A stretch of DNA of 44,071 nucleotides from Gemmatimonadota bacterium (GTDB lineage Bacteria > Gemmatimonadota > Gemmatimonadetes > Gemmatimonadales > Gemmatimonadaceae), in assembly GCA_023249375.1 (NCBI GenBank), contig JAHFCT010000027.1:1-44071 (forward strand), given 5' to 3'. Both the position numbers and the translations under genes were made by a program. Positions 34,425-41,009 of the stretch are shown piece by piece. Each line of letters starts with the position of its first letter. Positions within the stretch are counted from its first letter, which is position 1. The notes below the pieces were generated by a model. It did no database searches, was not told the DNA's origin, and worked only from the letters and a program-made list of their open reading frames with translations.

Positions 34425-36011
34425 ATGGCTCAGCTCGATAAGCTCCTTCAGGTCATGATCCAGAAGAGCGCCGAGGCGCTCGAGATGGACGAAGACGCCG
34501 CCGCCATCCTGCGGCTCGAGGGACACGACACGCCGGTCACCAAGCCGCTGAATGGGGCGCAGGTGGTGGGCCTGCTCAAGGAGATTGCGCCGCCGCAGGC
34601 CGCGGCCAGTCTGGATCAGAAGTCGCCGGTGAAGTTCCAGTACACCAACGCCGACGGTGTCTTCCTCGTCCGGGCGATGCTGCAGGGGAACAAGTGGCAT
34701 TGCCAGCTCTCGGTGGACGACAAGGGCGAGTTCGAGCGGCGCACGGGGATGTTTCGCGCCGTCGACCTCGAATCCGGCGTCGTGTCCACCACGGCGCAGG
34801 CCGCGCCGCCCGTAGCCGACTCCGCCGCGCTCAGCGATCCGGCCAAGGCCAAGGGCGAAATGGAGCGTCTCCTTCGCCTGCTGGTGGACGTGGGCGGCTC
34901 CGACCTGCACCTGCGCGTTGGCGAGCCGCCGATCATTCGCAAGAGCGGCGAGATGACGCGCGTCGAGGGCGTGACGATGACGGGCGCCGCGCTCGACGCG
35001 ATGCTGCAGGCGATCATGCCCGACCGCAACAAGAAGGAGTTCGCCGAGCACAACGACACCGATTTCGCGTACGAAATCGAGAACGTCGCGCGCTATCGCG
35101 CCAACGCACTCAAGGACCGTAAGGGGCCGGCCGCCGTCTTCCGCATCATTCCCACCACCATCGTCACCGCCGACCAGCTCGGCGTCACCCCCGAGGTGCA
35201 GAAGCTCTGCTACCTCACCAAGGGACTGGTGCTCGTCACGGGACCCACGGGCTCCGGCAAGTCCACGACGCTCTGCGCGCTCATCGACCTCGTCAACCGA
35301 TCGCGCTCTGACCACGTCATCACCATCGAAGACCCCATCGAGTTCGTGCACGAGAACAAGAGCTGCATCATCACGCAGCGGCAGGTGGGCGTGCACACCG
35401 ATTCGTTCAAGAGCGCGCTGCGTGCCGCGCTGCGCGAGGATCCGGATATCATCCTCGTCGGCGAGCTGCGCGACCTCGAAACGGTCGCCATCGCCATCGA
35501 GACGGCCGAGACGGGGCACTTGGTCTTTGGCACGTTGCACACGACGACGGCACCCAGCACCATCGACCGCCTTATCGACCAGTTCCCGGCCGACCGTCAG
35601 GAGCAGGTGCGTACGATGCTCTCCGAGTCGCTCAAGGGCGTCGTGTCGCAGGTGCTCTGCAAGAAGATCGGCGGCGGCCGCGTGGCCGCGCGCGAGATCC
35701 TGCTCGTCACCTCCGCCGTGTCGAACCTCATTCGCGAGGGCAAGACGTTCCAGATTCCCAGCATCATGCAGACGTCCAAGCGCATCGGCATGGTCACGAT
35801 GAACGACACGCTCATCGGACTCGTCGAGCAGAAATTGGTCGAGCCGAAGGAAGCCTGGATGAAGTCGGTGGAAAAGCCCGCCTTCGTCGCCTCACTGAAG
35901 GTCAAGGGCTTCGACGTGTCGTTCGCCGAGTCGGAGATGCAAAAGGAGCAGGAGGCGGCGGCGGGCGGTGCGGGAGCTGGAAAACCCGGCCCGGGCGGGG
36001 TGCGGCGGTAG
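34425..36011 (+). CDS. PilT/PilU-type pilus retraction ATPase with a duplicated N-domain
   Basis: This is a 528-residue secretion ATPase. The canonical part covers about 146-500: PAS-like N-domain (MERLLRLLVDVGGSDLHLRVGEPP), Walker A GPTGSGKS at 273-280, the Asp box TIEDPIEF, Walker B DPDIILVGELRD at 339-350 and the His box GHLVFGTLHT at 364-373. It should power type IV pilus retraction in the cytosol. Residues about 1-115 are extra and resemble a degenerate second copy of the N-domain. The C-terminus ends in a Gly/Ala-rich tail. No pilin or other pilus gene is nearby. It ends directly against the convergent membrane-protein gene, with no gap. Confidence 0.92.
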   Translation: MAQLDKLLQVMIQKSAEALEMDEDAAAILRLEGHDTPVTKPLNGAQVVGLLKEIAPPQAAASLDQKSPVKFQYTNADGVFLVRAMLQGNKWHCQLSVDDKGEFERRTGMFRAVDLESGVVSTTAQAAPPVADSAALSDPAKAKGEMERLLRLLVDVGGSDLHLRVGEPPIIRKSGEMTRVEGVTMTGAALDAMLQAIMPDRNKKEFAEHNDTDFAYEIENVARYRANALKDRKGPAAVFRIIPTTIVTADQLGVTPEVQKLCYLTKGLVLVTGPTGSGKSTTLCALIDLVNRSRSDHVITIEDPIEFVHENKSCIITQRQVGVHTDSFKSALRAALREDPDIILVGELRDLETVAIAIETAETGHLVFGTLHTTTAPSTIDRLIDQFPADRQEQVRTMLSESLKGVVSQVLCKKIGGGRVAAREILLVTSAVSNLIREGKTFQIPSIMQTSKRIGMVTMNDTLIGLVEQKLVEPKEAWMKSVEKPAFVASLKVKGFDVSFAESEMQKEQEAAAGGAGAGKPGPGGVRR

Positions 36012-36827
36012 TTAGCTCGTCGGTCTATGCCGCTCGTCGAGCGCGCCGAGTTCGGGATGGTGCTCGGCGATGCAATTCGGGCACATGCCGTGCGAGAAGT
36101 CCGCGTCGGTGCGCTCGCGAACATAGTGGTCCAGCTTGGTCCACGCGCCGGCTTCGGTGCGCACTTGATGACAGTATGAACAGATGGGGATGATGCCTTC
36201 GAGCGAGCGGAGCGCCGCGGCGGCGCGTTCGCGCTCCTCGATGGCCGCGCGTTCACGATCGAGTGATTCCGAGAGGTCTTCTTCGAGTGATCCGCGGTTG
36301 TGCGAGACCACCGCGCCAAGCATTGCCGCAAACACGAGATTTGACGCGGCCGAGTACAAATCGGTGCCCGACGCTCGATTGTACCACTGCAGCAACGAGA
36401 GCGATCCCGCCATCATGACCGCGGCCGGCGCCGCTTGCAGGGCGAGTCGATTGGGATAGATGACGAACAGGAAGAAGGTGACCAGCACCTCGGCGCGCAC
36501 GATGAGCGTGTTATCCGGCGGGCGCGCCGCGTGCAGCGCGAGGGTGAACAGCACGAGGCCCAGTGACAGGCCCACGACCAGACGACGCACCTGCTCGTGC
36601 GTCGTCAGCGGCCGGAGCACGAGCAGTCCACCAGCCCACAACACGAGGAGTGCCGCCCGCAGCGCGTAGAGGCGCATCAGATGTGCGGCGTCCGGCGCCA
36701 GCAGCCGGTCGGTAACGGCAAATGCCACGCTCGGCAGGACGAACAGCGTGGTGCACCATCTGACAAGTCGCTTCTCGCTCTCCAGGCGGACTTGCCTGAC
36801 GCGCTCAGTATGTGGGGTCGAGTCCAT
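36012..36827 (-). CDS. Six-TM protein with C-terminal CxxC/HGMCPxC cluster, paralogue B
   Basis: This is a 271-residue protein with five or six membrane helices in about 25-178, a short helical linker rich in Glu/Arg (about 180-208) and a C-terminal motif: CSYC (C216, C219), then H246 and C249/C252 in HGMCPNC. The sequence around it (EGIIPICSYCHQVRTEAGAWTKLDHYVRER) matches a tail known from many sensor and PAS proteins, but no kinase or cyclase domain is attached here. ATG 36827 gives MDSTPHTERV, aligned with the paralogue at 37720. It is encoded in tandem with that gene and separated by 59 bp. The cluster could bind zinc or another metal; the function is unknown. Confidence 0.75.
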   Translation of the reverse strand: MDSTPHTERVRQVRLESEKRLVRWCTTLFVLPSVAFAVTDRLLAPDAAHLMRLYALRAALLVLWAGGLLVLRPLTTHEQVRRLVVGLSLGLVLFTLALHAARPPDNTLIVRAEVLVTFFLFVIYPNRLALQAAPAAVMMAGSLSLLQWYNRASGTDLYSAASNLVFAAMLGAVVSHNRGSLEEDLSESLDRERAAIEERERAAAALRSLEGIIPICSYCHQVRTEAGAWTKLDHYVRERTDADFSHGMCPNCIAEHHPELGALDERHRPTS

Positions 36828-36886
36828 GACCGTGCCAATATCCCGCTTGGTGGGGATGGCGACAAGCGGAGCGTGCCGACCGACCG

Positions 36887-37720
36887 CTACTCCGTTTGCG
36901 TCTTCGTTCGCGACGGGAGGGCGGGATAATGCTCTGCCGTGCACTTCGGGCACATGCCGTGCGAGAAATCCGCCTCGGTGCGTTCGCGGACGTAATGGTC
37001 CAGCCGCTTCCACGCCCCCGCTTCGGTGCGCACCTCGTGGCAGTACGAGCAGATCGGAATAATCCCCTCGAGCGTGCGCAGTGCCGCGGCGGATCGCTCG
37101 CGGGCCTCGATGGCCCGCTGCTCTCGCTCCAGCGAGACGTCGAGGTCGTCGTCGAGGGCGCGGCGGTTATTGGAGATCAGCATGCCGAGCACGCCGGCCA
37201 ACAGGAAGTTGGTCAGCGACGAATAGCGTTCCACTGCCGACATGTCCGTGTAGTGCCACCAGAGCATCGCGACCGTGCCCGCGGCCAAGATCAGCCACGG
37301 AATCATCTGGTGGCGCAGCGTGTTGGGATAGCCCACGAACAGGCCGAGCGATACAAGGAGCATCGTGCGCAGCGGCATGTAATTGTCCGCCGGTCGCAGC
37401 CAGGAGATGGCGATGATGAACAGCACCATGCCCACGGAGATTGCGTACGCCGTCTGGCGCACCTGCGAGCGCTCAGTCGAGCGCCGAAACGCGACGATGC
37501 CGGCCGCATACATAAAGAGCATGCCGAGACGCAGCGAATAGAGCGCCGTCAGCTTGACCGGGTCGCGCACTAGCGCCCGATCGGTGATGGCCCACATCAC
37601 GATGGGGACGGCAATCAGCGACGTCACCACGATCCCGAGCCTCCGCTCACTCTCCAGGCGCACTTGCGCCACCGGCCGGGCGTCGGGCGGTGTGGAGGCG
37701 GGCTGGGCGGCGGTCGTCAT
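36887..37720 (-). CDS. Six-TM protein with C-terminal CxxC/HGMCPxC cluster, paralogue A
   Basis: This 277-residue protein has the same architecture as its neighbour: a basic/amphipathic N-terminus, five or six membrane helices (about 30-185), a Glu/Arg helical linker (about 187-215), then C224/C227 and H254, C257, C260. About 43 of the last 52 comparable residues are identical between the two, while the membrane parts have diverged more. This points to a tandem duplication in which the cytosolic tail is conserved. It is divergent from typA with 90 bp between. A MASE-like membrane sensor role is plausible, but no output domain is present. Confidence 0.75.
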   Translation of the reverse strand: MTTAAQPASTPPDARPVAQVRLESERRLGIVVTSLIAVPIVMWAITDRALVRDPVKLTALYSLRLGMLFMYAAGIVAFRRSTERSQVRQTAYAISVGMVLFIIAISWLRPADNYMPLRTMLLVSLGLFVGYPNTLRHQMIPWLILAAGTVAMLWWHYTDMSAVERYSSLTNFLLAGVLGMLISNNRRALDDDLDVSLEREQRAIEARERSAAALRTLEGIIPICSYCHEVRTEAGAWKRLDHYVRERTEADFSHGMCPKCTAEHYPALPSRTKTQTE

Positions 37721-37810: not shown

Positions 37811-39646
<1,836 letters not shown>

Positions 39647-39677
39647 GCCATCCACGCAGGAAACGGAGCTCAGCACC

Positions 39678-40070
39678 ATGTCGGGCATGTTGGCGTCGTC
39701 GGCGGCGGAAGCGCCGCTCGGCACGGACCTCGAGTTCCTCGGGATGGTCGCCGCGGCGGCGCTCGAGGAAGACGATGATGTCTTTGGAGCGGAACTCGAC
39801 GACGGTGACGAGATTGAGGACGACGAAGACGATGATGACGAAGACGATGATGATGATGACGACGCGGACGACGAGGACGCGGACGGCGACGAGGACGAGA
39901 CGGTGGAGGACGACGACGGGCTTGGGCTGGATGATGACGTCGAGCTTGACGACGACCTGATCGAGGATGATGAACTGGAAGAGCTGGACGACGATCTCAT
40001 CGACCTCGACGACGAGTATGACGCGTTGGATGAGGACGACGAGCCAGGGCGCGGGGATTTTGACGGGTAA
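39678..40070 (+). CDS. Very acidic Asp/Glu-rich protein
   Basis: This is a 130-residue protein. The first 30 residues are ordinary (MSGMLASSAAEAPLGTDLEFLGM), and from about residue 32 to the end most residues are Asp or Glu, with few basic ones. I chose ATG 39678 because GGAG at 39665-39668 precedes it at a suitable spacing; the frame stays open 28 codons upstream without a site. The acidic run is coded by near-repeats of GAC/GAT/GAG, prone to slippage. Such tails occur in RNA-polymerase delta-like or nucleic-acid-mimicking proteins, but I do not recognise this one. It follows typA and precedes tRNA-Ile. Confidence 0.7.
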   Translation: MSGMLASSAAEAPLGTDLEFLGMVAAAALEEDDDVFGAELDDGDEIEDDEDDDDEDDDDDDDADDEDADGDEDETVEDDDGLGLDDDVELDDDLIEDDELEELDDDLIDLDDEYDALDEDDEPGRGDFDG

Positions 40071-40212: not shown

Positions 40213-40248
40213 AATGCCCTGCATGGCTTTGCTGCCGTGCGGGGCATT
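40213..40248 (+). terminator. Terminator-like hairpin after tRNA-Ile
   Basis: AATGCCCTGCATGG (40213-40226) can pair with CCGTGCGGGGCATT (40235-40248) using two G-T pairs, around an 8-base loop, 11 bases past the tRNA. The tail TTGCGCTTCTC is only moderately T-rich. Confidence 0.55.
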
Positions 40249-40350
40249 TGCGCTTCTCGGATCCCGTTCTGGCGGTGTCTCCCACGGTGTCAGGACGCAG
40301 CGCGTGGCAGAGCTCGGGCGCGGTGCCCGCTGCACGGCCGCAGCATTGCC

Positions 40351-40386
40351 TTGTCCAGCCACGCAGGTTGTATTACAATGTATGAC
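40351..40386 (+). promoter_or_regulatory. Promoter and possible operator of the toxin-antitoxin operon
   Basis: TTGTCC (40351-40356) and TACAAT (40374-40379) are sigma-70-like hexamers 17 bp apart. A start six to eight bases downstream would fall at 40385-40387, so the message could be leaderless from ATG 40387. TGTA-T-TACA (40369-40377) is a perfect 4-1-4 inverted repeat overlapping the -10, where an RHH antitoxin could bind for autorepression. TGTAT also recurs directly 10 bp further on (40379-40383). Confidence 0.55.
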
Positions 40387-40608
40387 ATGAAGACCGCCGT
40401 GTTGACGATTCGTCTGGATCCGACCCTCGAGCGCCAGCTGCGCAGCCTCGCCAAGCGCACCGGACGCAGTCGGAGCGACCTCGCGCGCGACGCCTTGCGC
40501 CGTCAGTTGGCCGTGACACAGTTCGACGAGATCCGTCGTCGTGTCCTGCCGCTGGCGGGAGCTCGCGGCTATCTCACCGACGAGGACGTGTTCCGCGACG
40601 TCTCGTGA
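40387..40608 (+). CDS. Ribbon-helix-helix antitoxin
   Basis: This 73-residue protein has the RHH_1/CopG pattern: a short strand (TAVLTIRLD), then helix-turn-helix (PTLERQLRSLAKRTGRSRSDLARDALRRQL). The C-terminal part (about 45-73) would wrap the toxin. I use ATG 40387 because the upstream promoter places the transcript start there; ATG 40378 would add three residues. The stop overlaps the PIN gene GTG (GTGA), the usual coupling of antitoxin before toxin. It likely binds its own promoter and neutralises the PIN RNase. Confidence 0.87.
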   Translation: MKTAVLTIRLDPTLERQLRSLAKRTGRSRSDLARDALRRQLAVTQFDEIRRRVLPLAGARGYLTDEDVFRDVS

Positions 40609-41009
40609 GAGTCGCGCTGGACACCAACGTGCTGGCGAGCGCGATCGGCACCCGAGGCCTCTGCACCGACGTGATGCGCCTGGTCCTGCTCGAACACGAA
40701 CTGGTGATCGGCGAGCGCGTGTTGGAGGAGTTGCGCCGTAACCTGTCGAAGAAGTTCCGGCTGCCCGCGGACTTGATCGACGAGACCGAGGTGCTGCTCC
40801 GGGCGCAGGCGATCGTCAGCACCACTGCCGCCGTGGTGAAAGCCACGACGCTCGATGCCGCGGACGCTCGCGTTCTCGGCGAGGCCGTTGCGGCCGAGGC
40901 GGATGTCTTCGTGACCGGCGACCTCGAACTTCAGGAACTGGGTGAACGCGCACCGCTCCCTATTCTCAGTCCGCGACAGTTCTGGGAGCTCGTCCACCGC
41001 GGACGCTGA
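40605..41009 (+). CDS. PIN-domain toxin (VapC-like RNase)
   Basis: This 134-residue protein begins VALDTNVLASAIGTRG, the usual first strand of PIN nucleases. The acidic metal-binding residues are D6, E42 (VLEELRRNL), D87 (DAADARVLGEAV) and D106 (VFVTGDLELQ), all in expected places. Such toxins cut RNA, often tRNA or rRNA, when the antitoxin is lost. GTG 40605 overlaps the antitoxin stop. Its closest type appears to be the COG2402-like putative-toxin PIN group. It sits inside the repeat-bounded segment next to tRNA-Ile, consistent with carriage on a mobile island. Confidence 0.9.
   Translation: MRVALDTNVLASAIGTRGLCTDVMRLVLLEHELVIGERVLEELRRNLSKKFRLPADLIDETEVLLRAQAIVSTTAAVVKATTLDAADARVLGEAVAAEADVFVTGDLELQELGERAPLPILSPRQFWELVHRGR

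Follow-up and report, generated by a model that had tools for sequence, protein, structure and literature searches.

The receptor status of the six-helix membrane domains of adenylyl cyclases has been debated. A receptor role was proposed for these domains (PMC9433096, PMC11606603, PMC12505454, PMC4821796), and they have been described as responding to lipids (PMC11606603, PMC12505454). Furthermore, the mycobacterial cyclase Rv1625c is reported to become ligand-regulated once its membrane part is exchanged for that of CqsS (PMC4821796). A six-helix arrangement is also found in ImcA, a diguanylate cyclase of Pseudomonas aeruginosa, the structure of which (8wcn) is given as a six-helix homodimer (PMC10904736).

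In this paper we examine two adjacent genes in a 44,071-nucleotide stretch of DNA from a Gemmatimonadota bacterium (hereafter the window), the products of which, P0001 and P0002, share features with each of these systems. Like the membrane class III adenylyl cyclases (Rv1625c/Cya; mammalian AC5, AC8, AC9), P0001 has a sixth helix that passes into a signalling helix and the same predicted fold, but both proteins are devoid of a catalytic domain and end instead in a tail with four cysteines (Cys4 tail). ImcA possesses the six helices of the P0001 model together with a GGDEF domain and no Cys4 tail, whereas P0001 and P0002 display the reverse. Quorum-sensing hybrid histidine kinases of the CqsS type (six helices, HisKA, HATPase, receiver), likened here by layout, resemble P0001 in the order of receptor and output, and three family-mates of P0001 (L231, L237, L249) have the CqsS layout itself; unlike the CqsS type, P0001 and P0002 carry neither a kinase nor a receiver domain. 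Finally, uncharacterised zinc-ribbon-like outputs of response regulators, such as HalOD2 of haloarchaea, have terminal CxxC pairs behind a receiver and in this respect are similar to the tail, but by the motif description the pairs stand 20 to 25 residues apart as against 29 in the tail (PMC5847659).

The reading that we favour, with a probability of about 0.62 and on the basis of structure prediction and sequence comparison, is that the two genes encode tandem six-helix receptors, in which helix 6 would relay the signal to an output module of ~45 residues, the Cys4 tail, that replaces the cyclase or kinase domain and acts on a separate partner.

The two genes and their neighbourhood

The region 36012-37720 of the window consists of exactly two minus-strand open reading frames (ORFs), called as the longest ORFs and separated by 59 bases, with P0001 first and P0002 second. 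P0001 (36887-37720; 277 aa, ATG at 37720) is defined by its reading frame, by relatives in the genus and the phylum and by an AlphaFold model. P0002 (36012-36827; 271 aa, with an assumed ATG at 36827) is defined by its ORF and by 52% identity to P0001 across 260 aa; an alternative longer frame with a GTG start at 37013 would overlap P0001. Within P0001, residues 17-188 (37157-37672) comprise six predicted transmembrane helices, delimited by DSSP assignment of the model, Foldseek and VIA-align, residues 189-218 (37067-37156) continue helix 6 as a putative signalling helix, as suggested by the model and by the spacing in homologues, and residues 217-266 (36923-37072) form the Cys4 tail, the candidate output module, which was delimited by sequence alignments and profile hits. 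The translated frame places CSYC (Cys224, Cys227) at 37040-37051 and HGMCPKC (His254, Cys257, Cys260) at 36941-36961. By alignment, the counterpart of P0001 residues 17-188 in P0002 lies at 36288-36803 and its Cys4 tail (residues 209-258) at 36054-36203, with CSYC (Cys216, Cys219) at 36171-36182 and HGMCPNC at 36072-36092 in the translation; all these features are on the minus strand. The motif CSYC...HGMCPxC, which an earlier note on this DNA had pointed out as common to both proteins, thus spans residues 224-260 of P0001 and 216-252 of P0002, with the spacing C-x2-C-x29-C-P-x-C.

The same note had described nearly identical tails on divergent membrane parts, and this is borne out by the comparison of the two proteins, which are identical at 43 of 50 positions in the tail but at 60 of 160 in the membrane part (Fisher p 1.3e-9). 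Four-fold degenerate sites differ to a similar degree in both parts (7/21 in the tail, 21/45 in the membrane part, p 0.42), which indicates that selection on the protein preserves the tail; the stronger constraint on the tail that had been claimed is therefore a protein-level one. What had been overlooked is the homology, judged by sequence, that links the membrane parts of P0001 and P0002 with one another and with those of other receptors. Neither protein matched a Pfam or NCBIfam family above the cut-off, and no Guanylate_cyc (PF00211), HisKA, HATPase_c, receiver or GGDEF domain was found in either by the same scan. A search of PDB sequences with P0001 as sole query was likewise without a match.

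Full-length homologues of P0001 occur in the genus as tandem pairs (G001, G002) or as a single gene (G007, and G003 at a contig end). In both pairs, the second gene has lost the histidine of HGMCP (SAILCP, SPILCP) with the four cysteines intact, so that the cysteines are likelier metal ligands than the histidine. A tree built from 14 homologues brings the six copies of the genus together without settling the branching order of P0001, P0002 and the G007 copy. The pair is flanked by two conserved neighbours, a gene for a PilT-like ATPase (34425-36011) and one for TypA/BipA (37811-39646), and the order TypA - receptor gene(s) - PilT-like gene is present in G000, G001 and G007, while in G002 the PilT-like gene adjoins the receptor pair at a contig end. 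In G005 and G010, the PilT-like gene and TypA are immediate neighbours and the receptor gene is missing from between them, which suggests that the pair is an accessory insertion (or was lost there) and that the neighbours are not obligate partners. No match to P0001 was found among phages, and one typical tail (L040) matched a single plasmid. A role in defence was considered and dropped, as PADLOC returned no anti-phage family for P0001, P0002 and two other tails. Beyond typA, the window harbours a very acidic low-complexity frame composed mostly of Asp and Glu (39594-40070, plus strand; no Pfam match) immediately after that gene, and a ribbon-helix-helix gene and a PIN_3 gene overlapping by a few bases (40237-41009, plus strand), which have the appearance of a VapBC-like toxin-antitoxin pair.

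Predicted fold of the membrane part

The AlphaFold model of P0001, based on an alignment with 14 homologues, has a mean pLDDT of 84.4 and contains helices at residues 17-50, 54-80, 84-108, 115-130, 135-156 and 162-218 (DSSP). The last of these is one continuous helix of 57 residues, after which comes a small tail of strand and helix, modelled with lower confidence. The two best Foldseek matches of the model were ImcA (E 0.012, probability 1.00) and human AC5 (E 0.2, probability 1.00); these E-values are weak, none reaching 0.001, and long helical bundles match readily. Structural alignment with VIA-align yielded Z 18.9 for AC5 (221 residues, rmsd 4.9), 16.1 for ImcA (186 residues), 16.1 for AC9, 13.1 for AC8 and 10.3 for Rv1625c, while the best clearly unrelated rows (designed bundles, other helical proteins) were found at Z ~8 to 9. 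As helical bundles may score ~13 without meaning, the top rows weigh most, and the natural proteins among the first nine rows are all six-helix cyclases. Charge counts assign loop 2 and the C-terminal side to the interior, in agreement with six helices and an internal N-terminus. On these predictions, the membrane part is a six-helix receptor of the membrane adenylyl cyclase/ImcA type, a statement that forms part of the overall reading given above. Among the tail versions, an invariant glycine of helix 6 (Gly179 in P0001) precedes the first cysteine (Cys224) by 45 residues in 13 of the 14 homologues and by 44 in the remaining one, and such near-constancy is expected if the helix transmits a rotation or a shift.

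Domains fused to the membrane part

We searched for relatives of the membrane part with the profile A9, built solely from the membrane parts of tail-bearing proteins, and with a wider profile (A10). A9 matched 12 of 200 and A10 23 of 395 genomes of the phylum, and the matches were mostly tail proteins. Others bear different domains: in L249, L231 and L237 the six-helix part precedes HisKA, HATPase and receiver domains (A9 E 3.4e-22, 1.8e-16 and 6.6e-15), in L250 it is followed by HisKA, after which the frame leaves the contig (E 6.8e-13), and in L251 (genome G237) it precedes a GGDEF domain (E 3.5e-11), all of these E-values having been computed among 5456 open frames. A further protein with PAS, kinase and receiver domains (L252) scored more weakly (6e-7), and one genome (G055) contains both a tail version and a kinase version. 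A9 found no match among PDB sequences. The profile matches show predicted kinase domains (four proteins) and a predicted GGDEF domain (one protein) fused to a homologous six-helix part. Since they are joined at the same point, the tail occupies an output slot. The earlier note had called the tail 'sensor-type' and the proteins without an output domain; the exchange with kinase and GGDEF domains makes an output module the best reading instead, and the second description is misleading in that the tail itself would be the output domain. The gene of L251 lies ~0.6 kb from a tail match in the same contig, on the opposite strand (G237:C5:3343-4688; both are spanned by L052).

A fusion to class III cyclases is probable as well. 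One locus (L254, in genome G193) encodes two tandem class III cyclases (PF00211, E 2e-56 and 4e-57), each with a six-helix part. The link of this part to the family is weak in sequence: HMMER gave E 1.3 with A9 and 2e-5 with A10 (6.2e-6 in the A10 search of the phylum), and hhalign gave 94.5% with A9 over 184 columns and 97.2% with A10. The side-by-side position of the two cyclase genes (L254:874-3459 and L254:2121-3368, both on the minus strand) recalls the animal adenylyl cyclases with their two fused halves.

Spread and companion domains of the Cys4 tail

The tail is present in 118 of 298 genomes of the phylum, and a broader scan of genome contigs matched 585 stretches, of which at least 572 were confirmed; its recurrence is hence not due to chance. 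The best 80 of these at least 572 confirmed stretches were analysed, so that identities among them are biased upward, and according to the record titles they include Deltaproteobacteria, Nitrospirae, Spirochaetes, Bacteroidetes and Ignavibacteriae as well as Verrucomicrobia, Chloroflexi, Acidobacteria and other groups. Two or three tails in tandem or clustered in one locus were also seen in other phyla (L160, L191, L199, L141).

From the phylum we compiled 107 tail proteins, i.e. P0001, P0002 and 105 others picked by the motif (two duplicates of the window genes were dropped), and from 79 of the best 80 loci 84 further proteins (named loci; L200 failed the pattern). Within the 25 commonest of 39 Pfam families in the former set and of 50 in the latter, the domains that precede the tail are mainly PAS_4 (33), TPR_12 (24) and receiver (22) in the phylum and PAS (26), receiver (18) and HAMP (9) in the named loci, where GAF, Cache, SBP_bac_3, MASE3 or CHASE domains occur in fewer proteins. 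For example, a CheB-CheR-PAS protein (L158:2352-5216, plus strand) ends in a Cys4 tail, and in L196 a Reg_prop/Y_Y_Y front stands before it; both kinds of front commonly precede a kinase. No more than 37 residues separate the tail from the C-terminus in 106 of the 107 phylum proteins, and no more than 72 in all 84 named ones. Behind a receiver domain, such a position is the usual output place of a response regulator, which makes the tail an output domain by position.

The one protein without a C-terminal tail is L096, where a TPR-membrane-tail protein (L096:539-2455, minus strand) runs without a stop into a prepilin-like stretch, GFTMVELLVVIIVLGVLAAIA, as a result of fusion, read error or a missed stop. 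A prepilin-like motif is also located near the tail gene of L103.

It had been asserted that many histidine kinases and GGDEF proteins terminate in such tails. This found no support: none of 189 tail proteins has a kinase domain, although the same kinase profile detected 13 among 150 neighbours, and no GGDEF-like motif was seen in them; eight of the longest tail proteins, scanned singly, likewise lacked kinase, GGDEF and cyclase domains. Direct attachment to membrane helices, which had seemed special to the pair, is shared by others, with at least three predicted transmembrane helices in 21 of 105 phylum and 18 of 84 named tail proteins. The survey of fused domains and partners that had been proposed brought to light fused PAS, receiver, TPR and HAMP domains; a partner gene near the tails was not found.

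Indeed, kinase genes are not enriched beside tail genes (12 of 139 adjacent ORFs, compared with 23 of the 350 remaining ORFs in these loci; p 0.44), and receiver genes show a mild excess (18/139 against 22/350, p 0.027). Among same-strand neighbours within 200 bases of a tail gene, HATPase_c was present in 8 of 63 and a receiver in 11 of 63 (66 were found, from which two tail proteins and one masked stretch were removed). The idea of a partner kinase next door was abandoned, the excess having disappeared once other ORFs of the same loci served as the comparison.

Conservation and fold of the Cys4 tail

P0001 and P0002 fit a family pattern of C-x2-C-x~29-C-P-x-C with W, F and H in between and a C-terminal position. 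In four overlapping sets of loci, all four cysteines are kept in 32 of 33, 30 of 30, 57 of 61 and 87 of 88 distinct profile hits, as obtained with a profile itself built from the alignment A7; the conservation on which the proposed metal or redox module depended is thus present. The 57/61 set counts two fragments of one masked gene (L127), and its true losses are those of L135 (third cysteine to R) and L138 (first cysteine to S); elsewhere, losses occur in L013 (second cysteine to G) and L200 (third cysteine to R). In the alignments A2, A3 and A7 the invariance of the cysteines is partly built in, as rows were picked by a pattern that contains them. The L013 frame (L013:1480-1677, minus strand; contig C83 of the same genome as the window) has 66 residues and a degenerate tail from which the histidine is lost as well, and is likely a decayed or stand-alone copy.

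The positions conserved to at least 80% in 83 named-locus tails, PICA.CKKIRDD.GYW.Q.E.Y...H..A.FSHG.CP.C..LYP, far exceed the needs of four metal ligands, which suggests a conserved binding surface. To judge from the motif, the tail probably binds zinc through its four cysteines. Its model (pLDDT 83, pTM 0.53) matched no solved structure by Foldseek or a further fold search, a result that does not argue for a new fold. The best profile match in a PDB set was the N-terminal zinc finger of Stc1 (2luy; E 0.088), extending across both CxxC pairs, and the Foldseek search did not back it. No model in Pfam, NCBIfam or PADLOC, the three collections consulted, corresponds to the tail, and we found no description of it in the literature, which is weak evidence because motifs are seldom printed as text.

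Alternative explanations

Instead of an output, the tail could be an input, namely a redox or metal sensor in the form of a thiol switch or a rubredoxin-like iron site, with the membrane part acting mainly as an anchor. Rubredoxin shares the cysteine spacing of C-x2-C-x29-C-P-x-C, the four cysteines of the tail are nearly invariant, and many of the best 80 named hits come from anaerobes such as sulfate reducers. However, the homologous membrane parts bear kinase or GGDEF outputs at the very point where the tail is joined, and tails sit at the output end, after input domains such as PAS, Cache, SBP_bac_3, MASE3 and CHASE; moreover, Foldseek gave no rubredoxin-like match, which in itself does not exclude a site of that kind. 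We therefore regard a sensory tail as unlikely. Covalent binding of a c-type haem through CxxCH, present as CSYCH in the pair and in six other proteins of alignment A1, is scarcely credible: a K or R follows the second cysteine in 94 of the 105 other phylum tails and a K in all 84 named ones, so CxxCH is limited to the subfamily of P0001 and P0002 and a few others, and the predicted topology puts the tail in the cytoplasm, where attachment of haem c does not occur.

Two further alternatives concern the locus rather than the chemistry of the tail. The near-identity of the tails could reflect gene conversion between tandem copies and not function, as the two genes are adjacent and their tails 86% identical. 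This is very improbable in view of the similar four-fold differences in tail and membrane part, and because non-allelic tails are equally alike (41 of 50 positions between P0001 and G003, 42 of 50 between P0001 and G002). Alternatively, the pair may work with its PilT-like or TypA/BipA neighbours, e.g. in twitching motility or in the control of translation. The recurrent gene order in the genus, with the PilT-like gene by the pair in G002 as well, and the TPR-tail protein that reads on into a prepilin-like stretch speak for such a partnership, but the two neighbours also adjoin each other where receptors are missing, tail proteins elsewhere are without them, and a prepilin motif occurs in just two loci of all sets (L096 and L103), three other matches being helices of the tail proteins themselves. 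We consider this partnership improbable, and a link to pili through the prepilin-like fusion, for which that fusion and one nearby prepilin were the sole instances, was rejected.

Proposed mechanism and implications

Under the favoured reading of tandem receptors with a Cys4 output, the proteins would work as dimers, in keeping with the solved structures of relatives. Such a dimer would be shifted by a ligand borne in the membrane, possibly a lipid by analogy with Rv1625c and the mammalian cyclases, and helix 6 with its signalling helix of fixed length would reorient the two Cys4 modules. Each module would bind one zinc through its four cysteines, and the paired modules may dock, in a signal-dependent manner, on a conserved partner encoded elsewhere. 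With nearly the same tails and different membrane parts, P0001 and P0002 would probably convey different signals to the same partner; alternatively, they could form a heterodimer with one mixed signal, like the fused halves of mammalian cyclases. The suggestion in the earlier note that the tail is the part acting on a separate partner is thus probably correct, the partner being a prediction.

Receptor parts of this kind were known, and their transferability had already been proposed (PMC4821796). What appears to be new is the coupling of such a part to the Cys4 tail, together with the view of this tail as an output domain that is widespread and that no Pfam or NCBIfam model covers. More tentatively, and with the balance of our judgement somewhat against it, the tail could be a major unnamed output domain of signalling in bacteria, used in place of a histidine kinase, GGDEF, cyclase or DNA-binding domain. 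Through it, dozens of unrelated inputs, among them six-helix lipid receptors and PAS, Cache and receiver domains, would converge on one deeply conserved cytoplasmic partner.

A natural family whose related six-helix parts are coupled in some members to a kinase and in others to a GGDEF domain or a Cys4 tail provides independent evidence for transferable receptors, and the family of P0001 offers small proteins in which six-helix receptor function can be tested. Should the tail prove to be a general output domain, a testable function could be assigned to hundreds of bacterial proteins that at present bear the label 'PAS domain protein' or 'response regulator' without output, and a single partner could account for all of them.
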